A stretch of 50,043 bases of DNA from a virus. Both the position numbers and the translations under genes were made by a program. Under the pieces are notes generated by a model, which was not told the origin of the DNA, searched no databases, and saw only the letters and a program-made list of their open reading frames with translations. The number at the start of each line of letters is the position of its first letter. Position 1 is the first letter of the stretch. Below are positions 3,579-50,043 of the stretch, in pieces. The stretch spans positions 1-50,043 of the IMG/VR virus record IMGVR_UViG_3300043410_001172; one strand, given 5' to 3'.

Positions 3579-3703
3579 AAACATTTATTCTTGGAACAAT
3601 CTTTGGTATCGTAGTCGCTACAGTGGGCTTCTCGGGCATTGCTAAAATGCTAGACAATGGCGTAGAGAAAACTAAAGCTATTGCAGTTGAAAGTTCAAAA
3701 TGA
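3575..3703 (+). CDS. 42-residue membrane microprotein
   Basis: One hydrophobic segment near the N-terminus (residues 4-23, TFILGTIFGIVVATVGFSGI) followed by a short charged tail (KMLDNGVEKTKA). It overlaps both neighbours by four bases (ATGA at each end). A single-pass membrane peptide or uncleaved signal anchor; no function can be assigned. Confidence 0.6.
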   Translation: MKTFILGTIFGIVVATVGFSGIAKMLDNGVEKTKAIAVESSK

Positions 3704-13498: not shown

Positions 13499-13529
13499 AT
13501 CTTCATTGTTTAACTAAATGAGGTTCTCC

Positions 13530-14144
13530 ATGAAATTTCGTAATACTCTTTTGCTTGCCAGTGTGCTAGCATTGACAGCATGTAGTAGCATGAATGGTAG
13601 CAAGGGTCCAATCGCTGACCAGAAACTGTCAACCAGTTTCGTAAGTGAGAAAATTAAAATCGAAACCAAGTGTTCATGGTTCGGTATGGGTTCTGATTGT
13701 CAACTAGTCGCAATCGAATCGACAGGCACAGCAGTGTCATTCGGTGGTACAGCTAACAACCGTCGCATCGCATTGAAGCGAGCCGAAATGCAAGCTAACG
13801 TTAATGTGTCCGAATTCTTGAGTAAGGAAGTGTCTAGCAATCGTGTGAACGAAACAATTGCCAAGAACATTGAAAAGGCTACTGACCGAGTTCGTTCAGG
13901 TAAAGCAGATGGTAGCACAGTTGAAATGACTGACCAAGAAGCTAAGAACATTAGCCTACAAGAAAATCAAAATCACACAGCAGTCCAATTGACTGAAACC
14001 ATTCGCACAAGCTCACGTGCGATTCTGAAAGGTTTCGTCAAGATTAAGGAAGAAGTCGTAGGCGATCAAGAGGTTGCAGTGACTATTCGTTGGGATGCTC
14101 AATCTGAATCTGCCCGCAATCAACTTGCACGTAGAATGCAATGA
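13530..14144 (+). CDS. Lipoprotein 1 of a tandem pair (LPP20-like)
   Basis: A bacterial lipoprotein signal: MKFRN, a hydrophobic stretch and lipobox LTAC with Cys18, Ser at +2 (outer-membrane sorting in enteric rules). The mature part has a block (GTANNRRIALKRAEMQANVNVSEF region, about residues 75-98) reminiscent of LPP20/FlgT-like domains, where small residues and Ala-rich helices follow a strand. The ATG at 13530 has TGAGG seven bases upstream; the in-frame ATG at 13518 has none. Lipoproteins are rare in phages except as exclusion or lysis factors. Overlaps the next gene by four bases. Confidence 0.8.
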   Translation: MKFRNTLLLASVLALTACSSMNGSKGPIADQKLSTSFVSEKIKIETKCSWFGMGSDCQLVAIESTGTAVSFGGTANNRRIALKRAEMQANVNVSEFLSKEVSSNRVNETIAKNIEKATDRVRSGKADGSTVEMTDQEAKNISLQENQNHTAVQLTETIRTSSRAILKGFVKIKEEVVGDQEVAVTIRWDAQSESARNQLARRMQ

Positions 14145-15160
14145 AATATTTGATTGTAATAGCCATGCTGTTTCTTACAGCATGTGCTAGCACACCGCAA
14201 ACTAAAACATCAGGCTCTATATACGAACCCAAATCATATCGTGTGATTGGTAACGGTCGTACTTATGACGAGGCAAAGAACGATGGATTCAACAGTGCAA
14301 TTGAGTTTGCAGTTGGGTTCGTTATTCTAAGCGACAAAGAAGCAAAGAACGACCGACTAGTGCGTGACGATATTGCTAAACATTCAGCAGGTTACATTGA
14401 TAACTACCACATTGTTGATGAAATGAAATCAAGTCGTGGTTACACATTGGTAATGGATGTTGATGTTAAGAGTAGCAAGATTGCCGAGCGCATGTTAAAT
14501 CGTGGCAAGTCAGAAGGTGTCGTTGAAGGTGAAAAGCTAGCTGACCAATACAACTCTTACCTCAGTGAGCGTAAGACCGGTGACAGATTCATTAAGAATG
14601 TGTTATCTTCATACCCAAACAATGCTTACAATGTTGAACAAGGCAAGGTTAACTTCATGCTAGATGCGAATCGCAATTCTATCATCATTGTGCCCTATAC
14701 CGTACGTTGGAATTATGAATGGGTCGTTGCATTGCGTGAATCATTGGGTGTCTTACAAGACGGTGATAACAGGAGTGGTGATAAAATCACAGTTACATCA
14801 AGGAAACCGGGTGCATGGACAGGCGAGACGAGTGAATTTAACTTTGATGATTCTATTAGAGTTGGACAGGTCGTTGATGTATTGAGTGTGCGTACATACG
14901 TATTGGTAAAAATTGTGAACCGCGATGGTGCTACTGTCTACACTGGCTGTTTTAATGGTTTGGATCAAAATATGAAGCCAAACTATAAGTTTAGCCGAAG
15001 TCGTGCAGTGCTAGGGCACGAAACAATGTATAATGAAGCACACATTCCAGTGGCAGTCGGAAGCACATTGCATCGCAGTTTGCAAACTATGGATAGAGTA
15101 GAAACGTCCGTGATTGATGCAACCAAATCACGTACAGCATGTCACGAAAAAGCAGATTAA
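14141..15160 (+). CDS. Lipoprotein 2 of a tandem pair (339 aa)
   Basis: Short signal peptide with lipobox LTAC (Cys15), Ala at +2. The N-terminal mature region (YRVIGNGRTYDEAKNDGF, about residues 31-48) again resembles the LPP20/FlgT N-terminal domain. The C-terminal half is beta-rich with two cysteines (about residues 268 and 336). ATGA overlap with lipoprotein 1 suggests that the two form a periplasmic complex. Whether they alter the host surface or serve lysis is unknown. Confidence 0.8.
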   Translation: MKYLIVIAMLFLTACASTPQTKTSGSIYEPKSYRVIGNGRTYDEAKNDGFNSAIEFAVGFVILSDKEAKNDRLVRDDIAKHSAGYIDNYHIVDEMKSSRGYTLVMDVDVKSSKIAERMLNRGKSEGVVEGEKLADQYNSYLSERKTGDRFIKNVLSSYPNNAYNVEQGKVNFMLDANRNSIIIVPYTVRWNYEWVVALRESLGVLQDGDNRSGDKITVTSRKPGAWTGETSEFNFDDSIRVGQVVDVLSVRTYVLVKIVNRDGATVYTGCFNGLDQNMKPNYKFSRSRAVLGHETMYNEAHIPVAVGSTLHRSLQTMDRVETSVIDATKSRTACHEKAD

Positions 15161-16702: not shown

Positions 16703-18586
16703 ATGAGCAAAGTCATCGGTATCGACTTGGGTACCACAAATTCATGCGTAGCCGTTATCGAAAACGGAATCCCCAAAGTAATTGAAAACTCAGAAGGTGC
16801 TAGAACAACACCCTCAATCGTTGCCTACGCAAACGATGAAATCTTGGTAGGTGCAGCCGCAAAACGCCAAGCAGTTACAAACCCAAAGAATACAGTATAC
16901 GCCGCAAAGCGTTTAATCGGTCGTAAGTATGCCGAAGAAGCTGTACAAAAAGACATTGACTTGATGCCATACAAAATCGTTAAGAATGATAACGGTGATG
17001 CATGGGTTCAAGTAAACGAAGATAAGTTAGCACCCCCACAGATTAGTGCCGAAGTCTTGCGTAAGATGAAGAAGACCGCAGAGGACTATCTAGGTCATGA
17101 AGTCACACAAGCTGTTATTACAGTTCCTGCGTACTTCAATGATAGTCAACGTCAAGCAACGAAAGATGCTGGTCGTATTGCAGGTCTAGAAGTTTTACGT
17201 ATCATTAACGAGCCCACAGCTGCCGCTCTAGCATACGGCGTGGATAAACAAGATAAAAAGGATCGCAAGGTCGCAGTGTATGACTTAGGTGGTGGTACGT
17301 TTGACGTATCTATCATTGAGTTAGCGGACGTTGATGGTGACAAGCAAATTGAAGTACTTAGTACCAATGGCGACACTTTCTTGGGTGGTGAAGACTTTGA
17401 CCAACGCATCATGGACTTCTTGGTCGCTGAGTTCTTGAAAGAGAACGGCATTGATTTGACTAAAGATGTATTGGCATTGCAACGTTTGAAGGAAGCCGCG
17501 GAAAAAGCAAAGATTGAATTAAGTAGTTCGGCCCAGACAGACGTTAACTTGCCATACGTTACAGCAGATTCAAGTGGTCCTAAGCACTTGAACGTGAAAT
17601 TGACACGTGCTAAGTTTGAGTCTCTAGTTGATGAACTAATCCAACGTAGTCTTGTTCCATGTAAACAAGCTATGAAAGACGCAGGGGTTAACCCATCTGA
17701 CATTGACGAAGTTATCTTAGTAGGTGGCATGACACGTATGCCTAAAGTACAGGAAGCAGTTGAATCATTGTTTGGTAAAGCTCCTCGTAAGGATGTTAAC
17801 CCAGATGAAGCAGTTGCATCCGGTGCAGCTATTCAAGGTGCTGTGTTGAGCGGCGACCGTAAAGACGTTTTGTTGCTTGACGTTACCCCACTATCATTGG
17901 GTATCGAAACAATGGGTGGAGTATTCACTAAAGTTATTCAGAAGAATACAACAATCCCAACTAAGGCTTCACAGACTTTCAGTACTGCGGATGATAATCA
18001 ACCAGCAGTTACAATCAAAGTTGGTCAAGGTGAACGTGAAATGTTCCAGTACAACAAGACACTAGGTGAGTTCAACTTAGATGGTATTGCACCCGCGCCA
18101 CGCGGTATTCCTCAAATCGAAGTTACATTTGATATTGACGCAAACGGTATCATGCACATCAGTGCTAAAGACAAAGGTACCGGTAAAGAGAACAAGATTA
18201 CTATCAAATCTAATTCAGGCTTATCTGAGACTGAGATTCAACAGATGGTCAAAGACGCTGAGGATAATGCCGAAGCAGATAAGAAACAAGTTGAATTGAT
18301 CCAAGCACGTAATGGTGCTGAAGGTACATACAACAACTTTAAGAAAGACTTTGACGCACACAAGGACGAAGTCACAGAAGAAGAACGTACTAAGGCAGAA
18401 GAAGCATTGAATGCTGTACAAGAGGCAATCAAAGGCGATGATGTTGAGGCTATCAACAAAGCTAATACTGAATTGTATCAAGCAATCAGCCCAATCACTG
18501 CTAAGAAGTTTGAAGCCGAACAAAAGGCTAACGAATCTAAGACAGATGATAATGTCGAAGATGTTGAGGTTAAAGAAACAAAGTAA
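16703..18586 (+). CDS. dnaK: Molecular chaperone DnaK (Hsp70)
   Basis: Full-length Hsp70 (627 residues; E. coli 638). It starts [15 protein letters not shown], with phosphate loop GTTNS, the second phosphate motif [11 protein letters not shown] (about residue 193), adenosine motif VGGMTRMP (about 336), the interdomain linker [13 protein letters not shown] (about 390) and a complete substrate-binding domain and helical lid ending EDVEVKETK. Sequence blocks are close to beta/gamma-proteobacterial DnaK. No DnaJ or GrpE partner is in the window, so it would use host cochaperones or ones encoded elsewhere. Strong AAAGGAG ribosome site; late box and structured leader upstream. Confidence 0.98.
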
Positions 18587-22846: not shown

Positions 22847-23974
22847 ATGAAAACTCACATTCTAACGTCATTAGCCATTTCATTCTTGCTCACTGCATGT
22901 GGGGGAGGTGGCGGCGGTTCAGCGACTACAAACACACCCGTTGTAAGTCAGCCAGTAATTGCGGCAACACTGTATGACACATCATACAAAAATTTCAAAT
23001 CGTTTCCCGTTGACACACTGACGTATCCTACTAGTAACTATGGACTATCGGGCTGGGAACCATTGACATATGGTTACGGTGAGTTCAACAAACAAGGTGA
23101 GTTGGGTGTGTTCATTGCTAATCAGAATTACACACCGCAGAATGACAGTCTGGCTACTGTCACTAGTGATCCTCGATACTTGAGTGACTTTACATTCTGG
23201 ACGGTAAACAGTGACAAGACACTGACGAGGGTTTCATCAGTCAAAGGATGTTTGCATCCACGAAAAGCAGTGGTAGCAGACTTCAATCGAGACGGACTAC
23301 CTGATGTGTATGTCGCATGTACTGGGTACGATAGTGCTCCGTTCCCCGGTGAGAAAAGTAAACTATTAATGAGTGTTAGCCGAGGTGTTTACAACATGAC
23401 TGATGTTGGTGATGTTGCATTCAATCACGGTGCAAGTGCGGCTGATGTGAACAACGATGGATATCCTGATATCGCAGTAGTGGCAGGTCAAGGTGTATTC
23501 TTCTATATCAACCAACGCAACGGTACATTCGTGAAAGACGAAACACGGGTTTCTAACGTCACGCCCACTGGCTACTATTCGATTGAATTGATTGATGCGA
23601 ACAACGACAACATTGTTGACATCGTTGCCGGCGGTGCAGAGTTAACCGGGCCCGCTGTGACAAAGATTTTCTATGGCGATAACACAGGTAACTTTGGTGC
23701 AACAACTACAGTGATACCAAGCATACAAGGATTGACTAACATTCTTGACTTCACTTTGATTGGGACGAAACTTTATGTAGGTCGTGCTTATGACAATACG
23801 AAGGCGCAGGGGTTCTATGGTGGTTGGGGTATCCAAGTTGTAGATTTGGGTACAGGCGTGTCAACTGTGTTAGCAGACGTACCTGGTAGAATGCCCGTTT
23901 GGTTCGTACCAAAGACAGTAAACGGGCAAACTGGTATAGTCCCACTAACTGTTAGTACTACATTCTATCATTGA
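22847..23974 (+). CDS. Exported FG-GAP/VCBS-like lipoprotein (375 aa)
   Basis: A lipoprotein signal (residues 1-17) ends in lipobox LTAC (Cys18) followed by a run of six glycines, a tether common in proteobacterial surface lipoproteins. The mature part has three Asp-rich calcium-type loops, DFNRDGLPD (about 145), DVNNDGYPD (about 200) and DANNDNIVD (about 249), as in FG-GAP/VCBS beta-propellers. Such propellers bind ligands or other proteins outside the cell. An early promoter suggests that the infected cell displays it soon after infection, perhaps to change phage adsorption. It looks like a gene taken from a bacterium. Confidence 0.85.
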   Translation: MKTHILTSLAISFLLTACGGGGGGSATTNTPVVSQPVIAATLYDTSYKNFKSFPVDTLTYPTSNYGLSGWEPLTYGYGEFNKQGELGVFIANQNYTPQNDSLATVTSDPRYLSDFTFWTVNSDKTLTRVSSVKGCLHPRKAVVADFNRDGLPDVYVACTGYDSAPFPGEKSKLLMSVSRGVYNMTDVGDVAFNHGASAADVNNDGYPDIAVVAGQGVFFYINQRNGTFVKDETRVSNVTPTGYYSIELIDANNDNIVDIVAGGAELTGPAVTKIFYGDNTGNFGATTTVIPSIQGLTNILDFTLIGTKLYVGRAYDNTKAQGFYGGWGIQVVDLGTGVSTVLADVPGRMPVWFVPKTVNGQTGIVPLTVSTTFYH

Positions 23975-35903: not shown

Positions 35904-36215
35904 ATGAAACTACTATTAACATCTTTACTATTTTGCTCTGTCGCACATGCCGGCGAACGTACACCAACTGACATGTATTGTGACGAGACTAAGAAAATCG
36001 TAAAGTCGTTGAGAGAAGAATACAAAGAAGCACCATTTATGATTGGCAAAGCAGGTGATGTTGCAGGAAGCGTAATGACTTTCTGGATCAACCCTGAAAC
36101 GAAAAGCTGGTCAATCGTAGCTACGAAAGATAACACCAGCTGCATCGTGGGAGTAGGAGACAGTATTGAACTTATCTCCTACGATAAAAAAGCTAGAACA
36201 ATTAAGTACTATTAA
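35904..36215 (+). CDS. Small exported late protein (103 aa)
   Basis: A signal peptide (residues 1-16, KLLLTSLLFCSVAHA with AHA before the mature part) and two later cysteines (about residues 25 and 80) that could form a disulphide in the periplasm. The mature part is beta-rich and not recognised. Near-leaderless late expression. Stop overlaps the convergent gene by four bases. Confidence 0.75.
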   Translation: MKLLLTSLLFCSVAHAGERTPTDMYCDETKKIVKSLREEYKEAPFMIGKAGDVAGSVMTFWINPETKSWSIVATKDNTSCIVGVGDSIELISYDKKARTIKYY

Positions 36216-43113: not shown

Positions 43114-43356
43114 TTAAGCAATGTTGAGTTGAACTTGAAGACCTTCCCAAGTACCTGCAAGACCTACTGAACACTGGTCTGCTACACCCGAACCTGAACG
43201 GGTGAACTCAAGTGCATCCAATGCTTTTTGAGTTGCGGAATTGCACTTCACAAAGTCACCGACGCCGTTGCGAATCTGTTTGGCAGTAGCATAGAAACAT
43301 GCAGTACCGACAATAACACGAAACTTCTGGGATTGTTTGAAACGCTTGACTGTCAT
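43114..43356 (-). CDS. Small conserved early phage protein (80 aa)
   Basis: RFKQSQKFRVIVGTACFYATAKQIRNG (about residues 5-31) and an SGSGVADQCSVGLAGTW region (about 54-70) resemble small conserved phage proteins of unknown role. ATG at 43356 with AAAGGAG. Confidence 0.75.
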   Translation of the reverse strand: MTVKRFKQSQKFRVIVGTACFYATAKQIRNGVGDFVKCNSATQKALDALEFTRSGSGVADQCSVGLAGTWEGLQVQLNIA

Positions 43357-43385
43357 AGTGACTCCTTTTCTCAATCAATACATGT

Positions 43386-43414
43386 ATTATATGCCCAAAG
43401 CCATTTACTGTCAA
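43386..43414 (-). promoter_or_regulatory. Consensus sigma70 promoter, B-type cassette (minus)
   Basis: TTGACA (43409-43414), TATAAT (43386-43391), 17-base spacer. Downstream ACATGTATTGATTGAGA matches the plus-strand promoter at 25109-25137. Confidence 0.95.
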
Positions 43415-43425
43415 CCTTTTTAGCC

Positions 43426-43457
43426 AAAAAAAGTAGTACTAAAAAGTACTACTTTTT
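43426..43457. terminator. Terminator between early cassettes
   Basis: AGTAGTACT, loop AAAA, AGTACTACT flanked by A and T runs, usable on both strands. It overlaps the 3' end of 43439-43597 and precedes the promoter at 43414: another terminator-promoter junction. Confidence 0.85.
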
Positions 43458-43597
43458 CGGTGCTTGTCATGTCGTCGGTACTCATTCTTTTTGTTCTTCA
43501 CAACCTTAGGTTTGAAAGGTGTGTTTTCACAGAACAAAACACGATGTGCCCGGTGCTTGGGCTGTTCAACAGTAAATTTTAAAAGTTCTTTTTTCAT
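43439..43597 (-). CDS. Small basic early protein (52 aa)
   Basis: Very basic, with KVVKNKKNEYRRHDKHRK (about residues 31-48), so it may bind nucleic acid. Not recognised. Its ATG is nine bases after the -10 box, leaving almost no leader. Confidence 0.6.
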   Translation of the reverse strand: MKKELLKFTVEQPKHRAHRVLFCENTPFKPKVVKNKKNEYRRHDKHRKSSTF

Positions 43598-43606
43598 AAT
43601 ACCGAT

Positions 43607-43635
43607 ATTATAGCAGAACTTCTATTTATTGTCAA
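43607..43635 (-). promoter_or_regulatory. Perfect consensus sigma70 promoter (minus)
   Basis: TTGACA (43630-43635) and TATAAT (43607-43612), 17-base spacer, minus strand. Confidence 0.9.
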
Positions 43636-43636
43636 G

Positions 43637-44470
43637 TTACCGAATTCGGTGTTTAGTGATGACTTTCTTCATGTCAATCATCATTTGGTCATACTTTTCT
43701 GGTTTGCCACCTACTGGTTTAAACGTGAATGAGTTTTTTAACCACTCTACCAGTTCGGGGTCAGCTAGTACTTGATTCAATGCTTTGTTCAACTTAACCC
43801 TATCTTGTTCAGGGAAAGTTTTGTATACTGCATAGCCAGTACCAGCTAGAACCTCATGCGTATGTATCACTTTCAACGATTCTTTGTGTGACTTCAAATA
43901 GGGATTAAAAGTAGTAGTCTCAATCATATCCACTGTGCCACTCAACAAGGCTAGTGTGGATTCACTATCTGATTTATAGTTGATTACTTGGGTGTCTGAG
44001 TTCTTTGGCGCTTCTGTAGTTATCAAATACTCTGATAGAGGATTACTAACACCTACGTTTACTTTGCCACTCAAACTATTCATCGAATCAAACTTAGAAT
44101 CACTTCTAGTGACCAACAACGATGATATGTATTGTGTGAGAACTAACCCCTTCAACTCATTGACAGGATCTATATCATGTTCCTTCATTAGGTATGCGTT
44201 CACTGCATAAACACTACCACCGTGTAAAATAACGTTAGGATCACGATGCGCTTCTTCAATGAATGCTCGGTAGGCGATCATAAGATTAGCACCAGGCTTG
44301 TTGAACACAACAAATGTGTCACCAGTTATCTTTCCTACTTCTTCAAATATTCTACGGGTTTGAACATCCGCCCCGGATCCAGCAGGGACACCGATAAAAA
44401 TCTTATATATCGTAGCATCTGCTGATAGTGATAGAAAACTAAGTAGGATTGCGATTATATATTTTGTCAT
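43637..44470 (-). CDS. Bug/TctC-family solute-binding protein (277 aa)
   Basis: A periplasmic binding protein of the tripartite tricarboxylate (Bug) family. A signal peptide (residues 1-19, ending SADA) precedes IFIGVPAGSGADVQTRRI (about 24-41), where the family has the ligand-binding PxGSGxD loop, then VVFNKPGANLMIAYRAF (about 52-68). C-terminal helices with FPEQDRVKLNKALNQVL complete the fold. In bacteria it captures small carboxylates for TctAB or sensors. Here it is alone in a phage early-region run, without a transporter. Starts in an ATGA overlap with 44467-45000. An unusual auxiliary gene; ligand unknown. Confidence 0.88.
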   Translation of the reverse strand: MTKYIIAILLSFLSLSADATIYKIFIGVPAGSGADVQTRRIFEEVGKITGDTFVVFNKPGANLMIAYRAFIEEAHRDPNVILHGGSVYAVNAYLMKEHDIDPVNELKGLVLTQYISSLLVTRSDSKFDSMNSLSGKVNVGVSNPLSEYLITTEAPKNSDTQVINYKSDSESTLALLSGTVDMIETTTFNPYLKSHKESLKVIHTHEVLAGTGYAVYKTFPEQDRVKLNKALNQVLADPELVEWLKNSFTFKPVGGKPEKYDQMMIDMKKVITKHRIR

Positions 44471-45000
44471 TGTGTCCAACTTGGTTGTGTGCGGTCACGC
44501 CAGTTAAACATGCGGCGCTTGTCACCGTTATAGTAATTGCGATACGACTGAATAGAATCGCCGGGAACCTTGTAAGCATCCGGCATCGCAGGTGTTGGTT
44601 GTGTAAAAACGCCCACTGGTATATTAGTAGGTGTACTAGACAGTGCAGGAATCAATCGCTCACATGCATGGACTTTCTTGTAACGGTGAGTATACTCGGT
44701 CATCAATTTCAACCAAAGGTCGTACAAGAATTCGTAATTCTGCTTTGACTGACGAACCCACACCGCTGATGGATGATTCACGTGAGTAGCACGATATAAC
44801 TCCAAGTCACGTGCATCAGGTAATACCAGCGTTGTTTGCTTACGACCTGACTTTGACAGTCCAACTTGAGGTGTGCCGTCAAGCACACGGTGAGTAGTAC
44901 TCAACAACTGAGCATACTCTAAAATCATTTTAACAACGTGCTTATCCACGTGCATTTCAGCACATGTTTTAGGATCAGCATCTAAGTAGAAAATGTTCAT
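44467..45000 (-). CDS. Conserved phage protein, YLDxDPK..CDKH family (177 aa)
   Basis: MNIFYLDADPKTCAEMHVDKHVVKMILEYAQLL (1-33) and ATHVNHPSAVWVRQSKQNYEFL (about 71-92), with AMPDAYK near the end, mark a very widespread phage/bacterial hypothetical family. Conserved Asp, His and Lys suggest an enzyme, but I cannot name the reaction. Confidence 0.85.
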   Translation of the reverse strand: MNIFYLDADPKTCAEMHVDKHVVKMILEYAQLLSTTHRVLDGTPQVGLSKSGRKQTTLVLPDARDLELYRATHVNHPSAVWVRQSKQNYEFLYDLWLKLMTEYTHRYKKVHACERLIPALSSTPTNIPVGVFTQPTPAMPDAYKVPGDSIQSYRNYYNGDKRRMFNWRDRTQPSWTQ

Positions 45001-45287
45001 TGCAATAGCATCCGAATAAGACCGACTGTATCGATAGAGGTTAAAAGAATGTAGTTAGCCAACATCCCAAAAGATTTCCTAGTGAAAGCAGCCCAAGCAT
45101 AAAGAGCGCAGCCACTAATCCAGACAGGATATAGTAAGAGAAGAGGAGGGTTAGGGACTGTGATTGCCATTGTGAGAGAACAGCCAATAGAAATAGCCCA
45201 AGCAAGGAGCTCAATACAAAACCTAAAGGGATGAGTACGATAGTCATCTTTGATCCAGTTAAAAATACCTGCTACAATGTCGTTCAC
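44997..45287 (-). CDS. Small polytopic membrane protein (96 aa)
   Basis: Three hydrophobic helices (about residues 25-42, 46-66 and 75-95) with DDYRTHPFRFCIELLAW (about 14-30) at the start; a type frequently seen in phages. ATGA overlaps with both neighbours. Confidence 0.75.
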   Translation of the reverse strand: MNDIVAGIFNWIKDDYRTHPFRFCIELLAWAISIGCSLTMAITVPNPPLLLLYPVWISGCALYAWAAFTRKSFGMLANYILLTSIDTVGLIRMLLQ

Positions 45288-45487
45288 TTCGTTACCTCGT
45301 CAGTCAATGTAGGTATCTGGCTCTTTGTCTCATTGATATAGTTCCAAAGAATAGCTTCTACCATTTCATTAAATGTGATATCACGCTCGTGTGCCATCTT
45401 GGCGATTGACAGAAACTCTGCGTCTGACAAATCAACCGGAATGTCCACTTTCCCGTCTTTTGATTGCTTCGTTGTATTTTCGTTCAT
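45284..45487 (-). CDS. Ribbon-helix-helix-like small protein (67 aa)
   Basis: KVDIPVDLSDAEFLSIAKMAHERDITFNEMVEAIL (about residues 13-47) is a ribbon-helix-helix layout (short strand, two helices), suggesting DNA binding. Overlaps the upstream gene by 56 bases, which is unusual but supported by the family signature on both sides. Confidence 0.75.
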   Translation of the reverse strand: MNENTTKQSKDGKVDIPVDLSDAEFLSIAKMAHERDITFNEMVEAILWNYINETKSQIPTLTDEVTK

Positions 45488-45671
45488 AGTGCTCCATCAT
45501 CGGTTCAATGTCATTAGTGTAAATCTGCTCCATAGTCTTATAGAGCATCTTTGCTTCTTCCGCTGTCATCCCAGCAGTCCATGACGGATCGCCAGGTTGT
45601 TTTCTTAACCCATAATCATGTCTGTAAGTTAGACACATATCATGGATGATTTCCTCTTTTGTCTTATTCAT
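45432..45671 (-). CDS. Conserved small phage protein (79 aa)
   Basis: MNKTKEEIIHDMCLTYRHDYGL (1-22) and AGMTAEEAKMLYKTMEQIY (about 33-51) are typical of a phage family with two helices. Function unknown. 56-base overlap with the RHH-like gene. Confidence 0.7.
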   Translation of the reverse strand: MNKTKEEIIHDMCLTYRHDYGLRKQPGDPSWTAGMTAEEAKMLYKTMEQIYTNDIEPMMEHYERKYNEAIKRRESGHSG

Positions 45672-45885
45672 TGGCTCTCATTTGTTTACATTGTTGCACC
45701 ACAAACTCTGGGTAGTTGTTTTGACTTCCTAGAACTTGTGTGCAATTGAAAGTAACTGTAATTGTGTCTTCGTCATCATATTCATCATCGTTGGCAAAGT
45801 AGTTGTATAGGTTACTTATAACAAACAATACACCCAGTACGATTAGCACCGGCACGAATAAACTTGATGCACGTGAAGGGCTCAT
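45664..45885 (-). CDS. Small membrane-anchored protein (73 aa)
   Basis: A hydrophobic N-terminal segment (about residues 8-28) and an acidic DDEYDDEDT stretch (about 33-41), then a Cys-containing domain. Not recognised. Shares overlaps with both neighbours. Confidence 0.7.
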   Translation of the reverse strand: MSPSRASSLFVPVLIVLGVLFVISNLYNYFANDDEYDDEDTITVTFNCTQVLGSQNNYPEFVVQQCKQMRANE

Positions 45886-46049
45886 TATTCACTCAGTTTA
45901 TAGTTTAGGTATGCTAGAGCAAAGTCAATCAATGCGCCAATCAAGTCACCGCGTTGAATCTCATGTAAGCCTGCTAATACAAGCCAGCCGATCAAGAACC
46001 AGGTAATCTCTGTGCGATATGTTGCGAACCAAATTCTAATTTTATTCAT
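45885..46049 (-). CDS. 54-residue membrane protein
   Basis: Basic N-terminus then a hydrophobic Trp-rich segment (about residues 16-27) and a second shorter one (about 35-48). TAATG overlap with the downstream gene. Function unknown. Confidence 0.6.
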   Translation of the reverse strand: MNKIRIWFATYRTEITWFLIGWLVLAGLHEIQRGDLIGALIDFALAYLNYKLSE

Positions 46050-46050
46050 A

Positions 46051-46356
46051 TTATAACCAGCTATGTGCTGTCCATGTGTTGAGGAATCTCATGCTTGCGT
46101 TGCCACTATTGGCAAAGTGTTTCTTCTCAAACTGATTATACGCTGCCTTCCATTTCTTTGCAACTGGTTCGGGTGCGTGACATGCTAAGTAGTGTAACTT
46201 TTGAAACTGCTTAACAATGGTTTTCTGATTGAGTTTGTAGCCAGCTGGATACCATTCGTTTCGAGTTTGCCAATTGTAAGTATCAGATTGACCATATTTC
46301 AACCTTTGTTTCATTACATAAGTTTTACCCAAGTCTTGTGGTCTAAATCTATTCAT
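46051..46356 (-). CDS. Conserved phage protein (101 aa)
   Basis: LGKTYVMKQRLKYGQSDTYNWQTRNEWYPAGYKLN (about residues 9-43) and FLNTWTAHSWL at the end are strongly conserved in phage relatives that I recognise by pattern only. Basic and aromatic, possibly RNA/DNA-binding. Function unknown. Confidence 0.75.
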   Translation of the reverse strand: MNRFRPQDLGKTYVMKQRLKYGQSDTYNWQTRNEWYPAGYKLNQKTIVKQFQKLHYLACHAPEPVAKKWKAAYNQFEKKHFANSGNASMRFLNTWTAHSWL

Positions 46357-46357
46357 A

Positions 46358-46831
46358 TCATTCTCCTACTACCCAAATTTCTTTGAAGCCTTCATCCATT
46401 GAGGGGACTTCAAAATTCTTAATCATACTTTCCATCACGTCAGGTGGAATCACTTTTCCCGGACGACTTGCTAGACGGCGAGACAATTCAGCTGGCTCAG
46501 GTACTTTGAACACTACTGCAATGTGTTCGTATTGCGAAGGCAGCAGTGTGTTGAACTTTCGAGCACGGGTCTTTACTGTAGTGCTAGTCTGGTCCCAGAT
46601 AAAGTCCAAGTGGTTAGCTTGACAGATTAATGCTTGATTAACCATCAACTTAACCGCAATTGGCATGTATGCTTCAAAGACTTCTGAGTAAGTCTTGCCT
46701 TGTCGTTTAGCCTCTGCTTCCACAAAATGGTCAGTGCTAACAACTGGTAAGTCTTTAGCCCATGCTTGACTCTTGATCCAAGTACTCTTACCTGAACCGG
46801 GTACGCCTACTAATTGATAACACTTGTTCAT
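46358..46831 (-). CDS. P-loop kinase-like protein (Pnk-type N-terminal domain, 157 aa)
   Basis: Walker A GVPGSGKST (residues 8-16), a DHF-containing loop (about 35-37), a WDQT stretch (about 78-81) and an Arg-rich RRLASRPGK lid (about 119-127) fit the polynucleotide-kinase/AAA kinase fold that phosphorylates nucleic acid 5' ends or small molecules. No phosphatase domain follows, unlike full T4 Pnk. Start at 46831 with an AAGGAGAATAAG site; own promoter. Confidence 0.8.
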   Translation of the reverse strand: MNKCYQLVGVPGSGKSTWIKSQAWAKDLPVVSTDHFVEAEAKRQGKTYSEVFEAYMPIAVKLMVNQALICQANHLDFIWDQTSTTVKTRARKFNTLLPSQYEHIAVVFKVPEPAELSRRLASRPGKVIPPDVMESMIKNFEVPSMDEGFKEIWVVGE

Positions 46832-46851
46832 CTTATTCTCCTTGAGCATGT

Positions 46852-46880
46852 AGTATATGCTCAAACTGATTTGTTGTCAA
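46852..46880 (-). promoter_or_regulatory. Sigma70 promoter (minus)
   Basis: TTGACA (46875-46880) and TATACT (46852-46857), 17-base spacer; -35 overlaps the 3' end of the upstream gene. Confidence 0.9.
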
Positions 46881-47167
46881 CCTCTGGGTTTGCGAAACCA
46901 GTCAGGCTTATCACGGAAGCGATATTGAAGATACTCTTTTACTACTTCTGTTTTCATTTTTGAAAACCCTGTCTTGAGTAGAAAAAATATCTCATCCTTC
47001 TCAGAATCTACGCCAACTTGATAAACATCACCTTCACTTATCCTAGCGTGACTATTGCAAACAAACTCAATCAGTGCTCCAGTCTCTATTCTCAGAATAT
47101 CAGAAGGGGACTTGGCAATACTCCAATCATATTTGTAATCGACAACGTCCACATAGAAAATGTGCAT
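46877..47167 (-). CDS. Hypothetical phage protein (96 aa)
   Basis: Not recognised. Beta-rich middle (GALIEFVCNSHARISEGDVYQVGVD, about residues 30-54) and a basic C-terminus. Overlaps 47167-47403 by one base. Confidence 0.65.
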   Translation of the reverse strand: MHIFYVDVVDYKYDWSIAKSPSDILRIETGALIEFVCNSHARISEGDVYQVGVDSEKDEIFFLLKTGFSKMKTEVVKEYLQYRFRDKPDWFRKPRG

Positions 47168-47403
47168 TACACACGTTCTTTCTTAACACGACCGATACGT
47201 GAAGCCTTGTTCCAGTCATAAGCAACGCCGTCTGGACACTTGCCATCTTTGATTGAATCAACACCAAACATACCTACGATTTCAAAGTCTGGACCGGTGA
47301 TGGTCACAAACTCATTCATTTGCTTTGCATACTTCATTGCTTCGTCCAAGGACAAAACTTCGTATGAAGTTGACTTACCAGTTACTTTATACATTAAACT
47401 CAT
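47167..47403 (-). CDS. Conserved small phage protein (78 aa)
   Basis: YEVLSLDEAMKYAKQMNEFVTITGPDFEIVGMFGVDSI (about residues 14-51) is a phage family with a helix followed by a strand pair. Start at 47403 (AAGGA nine bases upstream) overlaps 47387-47644 by 17 bases. Function unknown. Confidence 0.75.
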   Translation of the reverse strand: MSLMYKVTGKSTSYEVLSLDEAMKYAKQMNEFVTITGPDFEIVGMFGVDSIKDGKCPDGVAYDWNKASRIGRVKKERV

Positions 47404-47644
47404 GTTTACTTATCCTTTTCAATTTGAACTTGCGTTCATACTCAATATGACCTCGTGCGGCATCTTCTTTTGTCGTATATCGCTCCAACACTTCACTGTC
47501 GCCGTTCGCATAGAATACACAAGTTTCAAATGGTGTATCTTTATACACTCTGCTATCCAACTCGACTGTACTCAACGAGATATCAGGTGGGTAAAACCAC
47601 ACATGGTCATCACTTACAAGTTGCCAACGATTCTTTCGCATCAT
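47387..47644 (-). CDS. Conserved phage protein (85 aa)
   Basis: KNRWQLVSDDHVWFYPPDISLSTVELDSRVY (about residues 4-34) and PFETCVFYANGDSEVLERY (about 37-55) mark a conserved hypothetical phage family. The open frame upstream would overlap the phosphatase gene by 95 bases, so the ATG at 47644, two bases after that stop, is used. Confidence 0.8.
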   Translation of the reverse strand: MMRKNRWQLVSDDHVWFYPPDISLSTVELDSRVYKDTPFETCVFYANGDSEVLERYTTKEDAARGHIEYERKFKLKRISKHEFNV

Positions 47645-47645
47645 A

Positions 47646-48146
47646 TTAAATGTCACCAGAATGTTCCTCATCTCGCTTAGGGATAATGAGTCCGGATTCA
47701 AGTTGAATTCCGTTAATCGTGTGAGGTTCGTTTTCGTCATAAGTCCAACCCAATGCTTTCATCATTTTATGTTTAACTAAGAGATTAGGGCTACGAAACA
47801 CTTCTGTGTCGTCAAAGCCCAACATCACGCCAACTTCGCAAACTGCACCACTACGGCACACGCCTGCGACACAATGAACGATAACATTCATCCGTTGACC
47901 ATATGCCTTTTGCAACAAGTCAACCAATTGTTGTGCTTGTTCATCGGTGATTTTGAATTCCTCAGCACTTGGCATGTCGTCTTTTTCAAGATCCAAGAAT
48001 TCAAACTGATGAACTTCACGGAACTCATACTTGGGAGTAGGAAACTCCATGCATGGGTCAACGATTTGAATCAACATGGCATTAATGCCGGGGTTGATAT
48101 GAAACCCTTTCTGAATGTCACTCAATGCTACGTTTTGAATCCACAT
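47646..48146 (-). CDS. Tyrosine/dual-specificity phosphatase-like protein (166 aa)
   Basis: The signature VHCVAGVCRSGAV (about residues 90-102) has the catalytic Cys and Arg in HCx5R. Upstream DEQAQQLVDLLQ and an acidic loop with PSAEEF resemble the general-acid region of the fold. It would remove phosphate from protein or small molecules. Similar proteins occur in T4-like phages. Sigma70 promoter and AGGAGATAA site. Confidence 0.85.
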   Translation of the reverse strand: MWIQNVALSDIQKGFHINPGINAMLIQIVDPCMEFPTPKYEFREVHQFEFLDLEKDDMPSAEEFKITDEQAQQLVDLLQKAYGQRMNVIVHCVAGVCRSGAVCEVGVMLGFDDTEVFRSPNLLVKHKMMKALGWTYDENEPHTINGIQLESGLIIPKRDEEHSGDI

Positions 48147-48171
48147 GTTGTTTTATCTCCTAATTACAGAT

Positions 48172-48200
48172 ATTATACAACAGTTTGGATTTATTGTCAA
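48172..48200 (-). promoter_or_regulatory. Perfect consensus sigma70 promoter (minus)
   Basis: TTGACA (48195-48200) and TATAAT (48172-48177), 17-base spacer, minus strand. Confidence 0.95.
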
Positions 48201-48502
48201 ATCTTAAACGTAGCCCAAAATGCTGTCTTTTCTAAGTCTTGTTGGAAGTCGGGGTAGACTTCATCTAGGTAACGCTGGTCGACCTCTTCGTATTCACCGC
48301 GTAATTTTTTACGTGCTAACTCCTCTGCTTCGTAGTTGCTGCCAGTCCACAATTTAGTCTGTAGTTTAGCGCCCCTACGTCCCCAGACAGTTAGAAACTT
48401 ACCATTAGAGTAACCATATCCTTCGGGCTCGTATAAACAAATAACACCCCATACTTTATCGTGCTTACCTTCATTGCACCAAAGGATATGTGCGTATCGC
48501 AT
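48197..48502 (-). CDS. WGR-domain-like protein (101 aa)
   Basis: KFLTVWGRRGAKLQTKLWTG (about residues 35-54) followed by AEELARKKLRGEYEEVD (about 58-74) has the layout of a WGR domain, which binds nucleic acid in PARPs and bacterial regulators. Start at 48502 (AAAGGAC), two bases after the previous stop. Confidence 0.75.
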   Translation of the reverse strand: MRYAHILWCNEGKHDKVWGVICLYEPEGYGYSNGKFLTVWGRRGAKLQTKLWTGSNYEAEELARKKLRGEYEEVDQRYLDEVYPDFQQDLEKTAFWATFKI

Positions 48503-48503
48503 A

Positions 48504-48719
48504 TTAGTCCTTTTTGCGTGAGGAACCTGTACTAAACAAGATTCCAAACAAGATGTTCAAGCCCCATGCTTGCAACCAAGTAACTTCATTGACACCTGTG
48601 ATTGCACCGACCAAGCAACCATTCCACAGCATGTAAACTGGCCAACTGAGCAAGAAACTCAAGAATAGCAAGAATGCCAAGCCACCGACAACTGTAATGA
48701 ACAATTCAAAAACTTTCAT
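48504..48719 (-). CDS. Small membrane protein (71 aa)
   Basis: Two hydrophobic segments (about residues 5-33 and 48-63) and a basic C-terminus (SSRKKD). Not recognised. Confidence 0.7.
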   Translation of the reverse strand: MKVFELFITVVGGLAFLLFLSFLLSWPVYMLWNGCLVGAITGVNEVTWLQAWGLNILFGILFSTGSSRKKD

Positions 48720-48728
48720 AATAACTCC

Positions 48729-48890
48729 TTAGAAAAAATGATCCATGAAAACTGCGCCGTTTAGGGCACTTGCGAAAACGTTGACCCAACCACCTTTGTT
48801 GTTCCCATCGTTGAAAGCATGATATGCTACCCAACCCGAGAAAAACATAAAGGCTAAGTTGATAAAAAAGATATAGTCAATCCAAGTCAT
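48729..48890 (-). CDS. 53-residue membrane protein
   Basis: Hydrophobic N-terminal segment (residues 5-19) then an aromatic, Asn/Gly-rich C-terminus (AFNDGNNKGGW). Part of a run of five small membrane proteins, 48504-49246 plus the edge gene. Function unknown. Confidence 0.6.
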   Translation of the reverse strand: MTWIDYIFFINLAFMFFSGWVAYHAFNDGNNKGGWVNVFASALNGAVFMDHFF

Positions 48891-48891
48891 A

Positions 48892-49128
48892 TCAAGCCTT
48901 TAGTGTGTCAAACAAATGCGCTTTGTCATGGTAGTATTTTACATACTTGGTTTCATCACGCCAGATTGCCAACTTACGTGCAAACTGCTCTGTCCAAGAA
49001 AGCATATTATTGCGAAACCAGAAGGGGTTGAGAATTGCTAGCAACACGATTATAACCATTGGAATCATCATAGGTGCAGTCAATGACCAAAACGCCATCT
49101 TGTATTTGAACATCGGAGACAATTTCAT
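48892..49128 (-). CDS. Small membrane protein (78 aa)
   Basis: A hydrophobic segment (about residues 14-35) and a basic/aromatic tail (KYVKYYHDKAHLFD). Starts 10 bases after the next gene upstream; function unknown. Confidence 0.65.
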   Translation of the reverse strand: MKLSPMFKYKMAFWSLTAPMMIPMVIIVLLAILNPFWFRNNMLSWTEQFARKLAIWRDETKYVKYYHDKAHLFDTLKA

Positions 49129-49138
49129 TTCTAGTTCC

Positions 49139-49246
49139 TCACTCGTCTTTGTTACTTGACTTTCCTGCTTTGTAGCCAGTGTAGATAAGACTACCTACAA
49201 TTGCTACAACACCTACTGCCATTAAGAATTCTGCAATTACAATCAT
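49139..49246 (-). CDS. 35-residue membrane microprotein
   Basis: One hydrophobic segment (residues 2-22) and a basic/charged tail (YKAGKSSNKDE). Function unknown. Confidence 0.5.
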   Translation of the reverse strand: MIVIAEFLMAVGVVAIVGSLIYTGYKAGKSSNKDE

Positions 49247-49248
49247 AA

Positions 49249-50043
49249 TTAATCCCAAGAGCTTGATGAACTTGAATCGCTAGAACTAGACCAGCTTGAG
49301 CTTGAATCGCTTGAGCTAGAACTAGACCAAGAGCTTGAGGAGCTTGAGCTACGTGAGCTAGAATCATCATCCCAGCTTGAGCTACGTGAGGAACTTGTGC
49401 TAGGAGTGTCATCCCAAGAACTGTCACGGCTACTGCGACTTGCGGGCACTTCACGAATTACCTCACGTTCGACAACTCGGGTAGTATCGTGACTGTGATG
49501 ATTCATCATGTCGCCAATTAAGATACCAGTCAACAAGCCATCATTGCTGTTGTTCACCACTGTAGTGTGTGCTGGACCCGAACTTGCGTTACTACGAGCG
49601 AGGCGTGCATCCATTTCTGCGCGGTCAGCACGAGCCCTAGCTTCACGCAACTCTGCCGCTTGTAACTCTGCCGCACGTGCCGCTTCTTGTTCTGCCTTAA
49701 ACTGTTTCACAGACTTCAACTTGTCAGGGTTAGCCGGGTCGAAACGTTCGTGACCATAATTCTTGTGCGCTTTGAGTGCGGCTTCTGCGGCCAATTCGGC
49801 TTTGCGTTCTGCATCTTGCTTGGCAAGCATTTCCATGTGTTCACGCTTACGTTGTGCTTCACGTTCTTGGCGCGCCTTTTCTTCACGCAAAAACTCTGCA
49901 TCACGTTCGGCTTGTTCTTCCTCTTGTTTACGAGCATAAACACTATACATGAAATAACATGCTACAGCAAAGCCAGCGAACATGGCAAACAGTACAAAGT
50001 TTCGCAAGGCATGTGATTCCTCTACAGCCTCAATCTTTGCTAC
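49249..50043 (-). CDS. Membrane/coiled-coil protein with Ser/Trp-rich tail (partial at window edge)
   Basis: The frame is open to the window edge, so the gene may start outside. From the in-frame TTG at 50007 it is 252 residues: a hydrophobic segment (about 3-22), a long Glu/Arg/Ala coiled coil (about 26-145), a short Asn/Gly patch (VVNNSNDGLLTG) and a C-terminal low-complexity tail of Ser runs broken by Trp or Asp (about 185-252). Similar tails occur in bacterial surface proteins. It could be a virion or envelope protein; role unknown. Confidence 0.7.
   Translation of the reverse strand, partial: VAKIEAVEESHALRNFVLFAMFAGFAVACYFMYSVYARKQEEEQAERDAEFLREEKARQEREAQRKREHMEMLAKQDAERKAELAAEAALKAHKNYGHERFDPANPDKLKSVKQFKAEQEAARAAELQAAELREARARADRAEMDARLARSNASSGPAHTTVVNNSNDGLLTGILIGDMMNHHSHDTTRVVEREVIREVPASRSSRDSSWDDTPSTSSSRSSSWDDDSSSRSSSSSSSWSSSSSSDSSSSWSSSSDSSSSSSWD

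Follow-up and report, generated by a model that had tools for sequence, protein, structure and literature searches.

What does a phage gain from a periplasmic solute-binding protein that no TctA permease gene accompanies? The question is raised by a TctC/Bug-type gene in a 50,043-base virus record, which was analysed over its whole length (the window), and for which an earlier note had suggested either an increased uptake of an organic acid during infection or the alteration of a host sensor. In all likelihood the window is only a part of the genome of a large phage, since phage contigs as long as 525 kb encode relatives of its DnaK-like protein (16703-18586) that are 77-90% identical, and T4-type capsid genes are present on two of the contigs with DnaK relatives. 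A 6.8-kb IMG/VR contig (L001) is identical to window positions 43194-49981 and constitutes an independent record of the same phage. In the cultured-phage collection no match was found to the TctC protein, nor to the window DNA.

The TctC frame is confirmed at 43637-44470 on the minus strand, although the listing of open reading frames starts it at a TTG at 44479, nine bases upstream of the ATG at 44470. The ATG was preferred as it forms an ATGA overlap with the stop codon of the preceding gene, and as the homologous gene of a related, diverged phage contig (L002), the product of which is 70% identical, has the identical 4-nt overlap although its preceding gene is a different one. The first 19 residues, MTKYIIAILLSFLSLSADA, read by eye as a Sec-like signal with an AxA site. 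The signal of the L002 homologue, MKKLLAVIFCLLALTANA, likewise has a K, a hydrophobic run and a cut site, which is ANA as opposed to ADA in the window protein. The export signal that had been claimed for the window protein is thus borne out by reading both sequences, and the protein looks like an exported, periplasmic one.

The protein is confirmed as a TctC/Bug solute-binding protein. It matches Pfam TctC (PF03401) with E=7.2e-10 and 39.3 bits, the curated cut-off being 27, and more weakly a phosphonate-binding family, just under the cut-off of the latter; PHROGs contains no family for it. The best phmmer match in the PDB is Bug27 (E=8e-7). AlphaFold2 gave a two-lobed fold with pLDDT 91.6 and pTM 0.84 from an alignment of 31 sequences, while two sequences alone yielded a pLDDT of 35. 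The top PDB matches of this model in Foldseek are all Bug/TctC proteins with TM scores of about 0.70-0.78, among them Bug27 (E=2.3e-15), TctC 4x9t (TM 0.78) and the open form of TphC (TM 0.78), and the nearest solved structures comprise Bug27, a BugE-type transporter protein, TctC, terephthalate-binding proteins, MatC and BugD. The identity to the structural relatives in PDB and BFVD is low, 16-19%, so that the ligand specificity is not readable from them.

The binding site is kept in part. In Bug proteins the loop between beta1 and alpha1, the pincer loop, holds the ligand carboxylate; it carries the domain-1 motif P-F-x-A-G-G-x-x-D, at which two bound waters bridge to the carboxylate (PMC5812351). 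The window protein has G-V-P-A-G-S-G-A-D, in which the Ala, the first Gly and the Asp are retained, while P is replaced by G, F by V and the second G by S. Hydroxyl substitutions in the motif occur in some Bug proteins (PMC5812351), and the Ser is of that sort. Between the window protein and L002 the NKPGAN segment and the loops HGGSVYAVN, GVSNPLSE and YKSD are nearly unchanged; the cleft loops are 81% identical versus 69% elsewhere, a difference that is suggestive only and not significant (p=0.08). The mature protein has about 258 residues compared with about 300 in Bug proteins, a typical size and not a strict criterion, and according to the alignment the missing 20-odd residues correspond to the LPDVPT region with the stretch S..R...LPDVPT..E.G. 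A relative on the viral contig L062 (276 residues) is equally short. Judged from the model, the window protein is a compact form that retains the fold and a good part of the pocket. Of the typical TctC/Bug motifs reported for it earlier, NKPGAN stands, as do family and fold, with the pincer motif being altered; with the fold and the cleft loops kept, the protein does not represent a purely structural phage family devoid of ligand-binding residues.

Table 1. Features of the TctC locus and of related viral contigs; positions refer to the window unless a contig (L number) is named.
Feature	Position	Strand	Basis or remark
TctC/Bug-type solute-binding protein, 277 aa	43637..44470	(-)	stop codon included; Pfam TctC, AF2, Foldseek
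Sec-type signal peptide, residues 1-19, predicted cut after ADA	44414..44470	(-)	sequence reading; equivalent signal in L002
ATGA start/stop overlap of TctC with preceding gene (translational coupling, predicted)	44467..44470	(-)	same overlap in L002 at 3700-3703
beta1-alpha1 pincer loop IGVPAGSGADV, residues 26-36	44363..44395	(-)	alignment; second conserved Gly replaced by Ser
NKPGAN, residues 57-62, family hallmark segment	44285..44302	(-)	alignment; identical in L002
First gene of the run, AAA_33 / kinase-like P-loop protein	46358..46831	(-)	Pfam AAA_33 E=2.5e-16; 82% identical in L002
96-aa hydrophobic (membrane-like) protein of the run	44997..45287	(-)	84% identical in L002
Gene preceding TctC, phrog_624 family ("DNA binding protein"), weak Pyr_excise similarity	44467..45000	(-)	other ORF in L002
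Sigma-70-type promoter TTGACA-17-TATACT ahead of the nine-gene run	46852..46880	(-)	near-consensus
Perfect TTGACA-17-TATAAT promoter, starting 2 nt past the TctC stop	43607..43635	(-)	sequence
TctC/PP-loop interleaved contigs (IMG/VR)	L015, L016, L018, L022, L025, L030, L035, L036, L038, L046, L053, L062 and others		
DctP genes	L055:1918-2889, L063:1709-2692, L040:2380-3345		
Loci with sulfotransferase-, methyltransferase- or APS-kinase-like neighbours	L149, L150, L151, L152, L026, L155:1552-2241, L155:6011-6862		
Small beta-barrel-like exported protein	L018:11310-11870, L015:2226-2783, L038:8889-9455, L155:6922-7476, L160:4126-4683, L161:6448-7005		

Nine minus-strand genes follow one another closely here; the first encodes the AAA_33 kinase-like protein (its start taken at the ATG of MNKCYQ) and the last is TctC. 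The promoter behind the TctC stop codon probably serves the genes that follow and delimits the run. That TctC is transcribed with conserved phage genes, as stated in the earlier note, fits the gene layout, from which co-transcription itself is a prediction. Many near-identical TTGACA-17-TATAAT promoters with similar spacers precede small genes across the window, at 1570, 1859, 5102, 5457, 25109, 26007, 26210, 42521, 42874, 43386, 43607 and other positions, which suggests early expression by the host RNA polymerase. Further window genes with lipoprotein-type or other export signals lie at 13518-14144, 14141-15160, 22847-23974 and 35904-36215, and the phage is accordingly predicted to send several proteins to the envelope.

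In L002 the order of genes to either side of TctC is largely the same, except that the gene just upstream of it differs. The dN/dS ratio between the two TctC genes is 0.127, an approximate value as synonymous sites are nearly saturated at this distance, and lies within the range of neighbouring phage genes (0.08-0.22); by this measure the window gene appears to be an old phage gene, maintained under purifying selection. Its nearest sequences are phage genes, those of L002 and L062 (30% identical), and the best bacterial matches, obtained in a plasmid search, are 23-29% identical and come mostly from Cupriavidus, Variovorax, Rhizobium and relatives. No bacterial homologue above about 30% was found, and two scans of bacterial contigs gave no relative, the phage-derived peptide patterns used in them probably being too specific. 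In IMG/VR, a pattern scan for a conserved segment followed by a profile search revealed TctC-like genes on several dozen viral contigs, most of them of low GC; among DnaK-related phage records TctC is rare (5 of 50, including the window). Phylogenetic analyses grouped the window protein with L002 and L062 (98/94; 98 in another tree), and this clade is nested in a group of 18 that consists of phage sequences only (93/83) and is separate from the bacterial Bug proteins in the tree, a small sample of 17, with long branches. Phage TctC proteins fall in several clades, so it is likely that they have more than one origin. A recent acquisition from Betaproteobacteria, in which Bug proteins are numerous according to the earlier note, is not supported, given the low bacterial identities and the grouping with phage genes.

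The earlier note had seen no transporter genes nearby. As far as TctA (PF01970) goes, this holds for the entire 50-kb window, in which no match was found. Other phages do encode the permease. On the 383-kb phage contig L155, the DnaK of which is 78% identical to that of the window, a TctA gene (E=4e-92) lies 10 bp before a TctC gene (L155:3408-5946). TctA proteins 61-67% identical to the one of L155 are encoded on 15 further viral contigs (L160-L174), and in 14 of these TctC follows on the same strand 0-2 genes downstream, while the 15th contig ends there; TctA and TctC are therefore a recurrent phage pair. The 383-kb phage and two of the 15 contigs (117 and 167 kb) carry T4-type major capsid and terminase genes. 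A kinship of the window protein with the TctA-linked phage TctC proteins, seen in one tree (87/84), was withdrawn after bacterial TctC proteins adjoining TctA had been added, as the TctA-linked phage proteins join the bacterial ones of that type in the enlarged tree (99/98). With bacterial relatives included the window gene belongs to a different clade, and the TctA+TctC operons are thus an analogy and not direct kin.

A second recurrent neighbour of phage TctC is a PP-loop ATPase. At about 19 low-GC loci TctC directly adjoins a gene with an SGGxDS motif, the product of which mostly has 280-490 residues, and on many contigs the two are interleaved, in up to several copies each, with start and stop codons often overlapping (Table 1). 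In a profile search the PP-loop family was found in 22 of 33 viral records with TctC versus 1 of 45 DnaK-related phage records without it, which is to be read as an association and not as a rate, since the records are related and the comparison group is another phage lineage. Pfam and PHROGs barely recognise these proteins, matching only QueC-like, MnmA-like and PAPS-reductase-like fragments around the motif, and their PDB matches, an NAD synthase domain and N-type ATP pyrophosphatases, are marginal. The window, a 50-kb fragment of its phage, contains neither an SGGxD open reading frame nor a PP-loop profile match. It is conceivable, though unlikely, that the window gene belongs to a phage radiation in many members of which the binding protein imports an organic or amino acid that the PP-loop protein, a cytoplasmic enzyme resembling ATP pyrophosphatases, activates for a phage-specific modification; the window copy would then be stand-alone, or its enzyme would lie outside the fragment.

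The reading that we prefer, and to which we give about an even chance, is that the window protein is a stand-alone periplasmic binding protein, made early, which supplies a permease of the host in the manner of PstS. The gene would be transcribed early from a host-type sigma-70 promoter, as the consensus elements suggest, and the protein would be exported through Sec, bind a small anion between the two lobes, with a carboxylate as the likeliest candidate, and pass this ligand on to an existing host permease, TctAB or a different one. The benefit for the phage would be that solute uptake keeps going after host gene expression has been shut down. Support comes from the family and fold, the signal peptide in both homologues, the retained hallmark segments and most of the cleft loops, the dN/dS ratio and the TctA+TctC pairs of other phages. 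There is a precedent in phage PstS feeding host uptake (PMC10976474), and bacterial Bug proteins often occur as orphans with no transporter gene beside them (PMC5812351). Counted against it are the missing permease, the different clade of the TctA-linked proteins, the short length, the absent LPDVPT stretch and the altered domain-1 motif.

Instead of mediating uptake, the protein, loaded or empty, might dock on a host two-component sensor or chemoreceptor and switch regulation. In Bordetella, BctC has a part in transport and also acts on the sensor BctE, many genomes encode far more Bug proteins than TctA proteins (PMC5812351), and the missing permease in the window fits as well; the window itself offers no specific evidence for such a role, and beside the phage TctC genes examined no such regulatory gene was identified, while permease genes were. 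We regard regulation as improbable, and of the two options of the earlier note, uptake is likelier than an altered host sensor because related phages carry TctA+TctC operons. The same operons point to transport and away from a periplasmic decoy or blocker, that is, a protein sitting on an inner-membrane permease or envelope protein in order to stop superinfection or to counter an envelope defence. The diversity of phage TctC genes, their multiple copies and their sporadic occurrence are what a genetic conflict would produce, promoters of the early type suit genes for host take-over, and the ligand loop is altered; ordinary purifying selection, the intact two-lobed fold and the mostly kept cleft loops point to ligand binding, and a decoy is in our view unlikely.

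Ligand binding without transport would be the role of a sponge, which captures a periplasmic ligand, for instance a pyridine such as quinolinate, and thereby starves a competitor or shields a phage enzyme. Bug27, the top PDB match of the window protein, and Bug69 were reported to bind quinolinate at sub-micromolar affinity in vitro (PMC11452294). At the identity given above this specificity cannot be carried over to the window protein, no other feature supports a sponge, and we consider it very unlikely. Hardly credible is a mere passenger, picked up from a host by chance and without benefit to the phage: the scarcity of TctC among DnaK-related phages would suit it, but the open frame, the synteny, the low dN/dS relative to the diverged L002, even with synonymous sites nearly saturated, and the fact that the nearest homologues are phage genes all speak against it.

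Compared with known systems, the window protein shares the Pfam TctC match, the two-lobed fold, the signal peptide, NKPGAN and the Gly and Asp of the pincer loop with bacterial TctC/Bug proteins such as Bug27, BugD, BugE, TphC, MatC and AdpC, and differs from them in its shorter mature form, the lack of LPDVPT and the altered pincer motif. It differs from a complete TTT transporter (TctABC) in the lack of TctA. Like cyanophage PstS, it is a phage-borne periplasmic binding protein for which feeding of a host transporter during infection is proposed (PMC10976474), but it belongs to another family of solute-binding proteins with another ligand; moreover, PstS clusters with the genes of its hosts, whereas the window protein groups with phage sequences alone and shows no recognisable bacterial donor. 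The same fold is found in entries of uncultured Caudovirales named "PBP2_Bug_TTT domain" or "Bordetella uptake protein" (A0A6J5T9X7, A0A6J5L7K0, A0A6J5T247 and A0A6J5M1T7; BFVD, E 4e-12 to 1e-14), which are known by annotation only and are 16-19% identical to the window protein. A tctA gene was reported as a domain hit on a SUP05 viral contig (PMC4164917), and tricarboxylate-transport genes were mentioned with a norB/nirK virus in connection with a genomic island (PMC8115048); neither of these passages describes the binding protein as a phage family. In a search that covered subscription journals only to a small extent, no paper was found that treats the phage TctC proteins as a family or reports that their genes are paired with those for TctA or PP-loop proteins. 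The fold family and a few phage entries are already known, and the window gene is a new compact variant.

Phage nutrient-binding proteins are known mainly from cyanophage PstS, and TctC/Bug represents a second, diverse family, found in low-GC phages in two recurrent contexts, adjoining a TctA permease or adjoining PP-loop ATPases. If the protein indeed feeds a host permease, phages would control the uptake of organic acids as well as that of phosphate. The TctA+TctC pairs make transport directly testable by expression, and the window protein, being compact, could serve as a minimal Bug protein in structural and ligand studies.

Several other genes were observed near phage TctC genes (Table 1). 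A small exported protein that ends in F and resembles an outer-membrane beta-barrel is encoded nearby in several phages and could possibly be the outer-membrane part of an uptake route. Genes for TRAP-type DctP binding proteins (PF03480, E 1e-42 to 1e-50) also lie near TctC; all three lack a signal peptide when read by eye, which is odd for a periplasmic binding protein. On contig L032 TctC is flanked by an amidohydrolase gene on one side and a DctP gene on the other. TctC genes of large phages lie beside sulfotransferase-like, methyltransferase-like and APS-kinase-like genes with weak or no Pfam matches, and on two contigs without a PP-loop gene an AMP-binding, acyl-CoA-synthetase-like enzyme is encoded directly before TctC (L048:2-1441 and L056:1526-2965).
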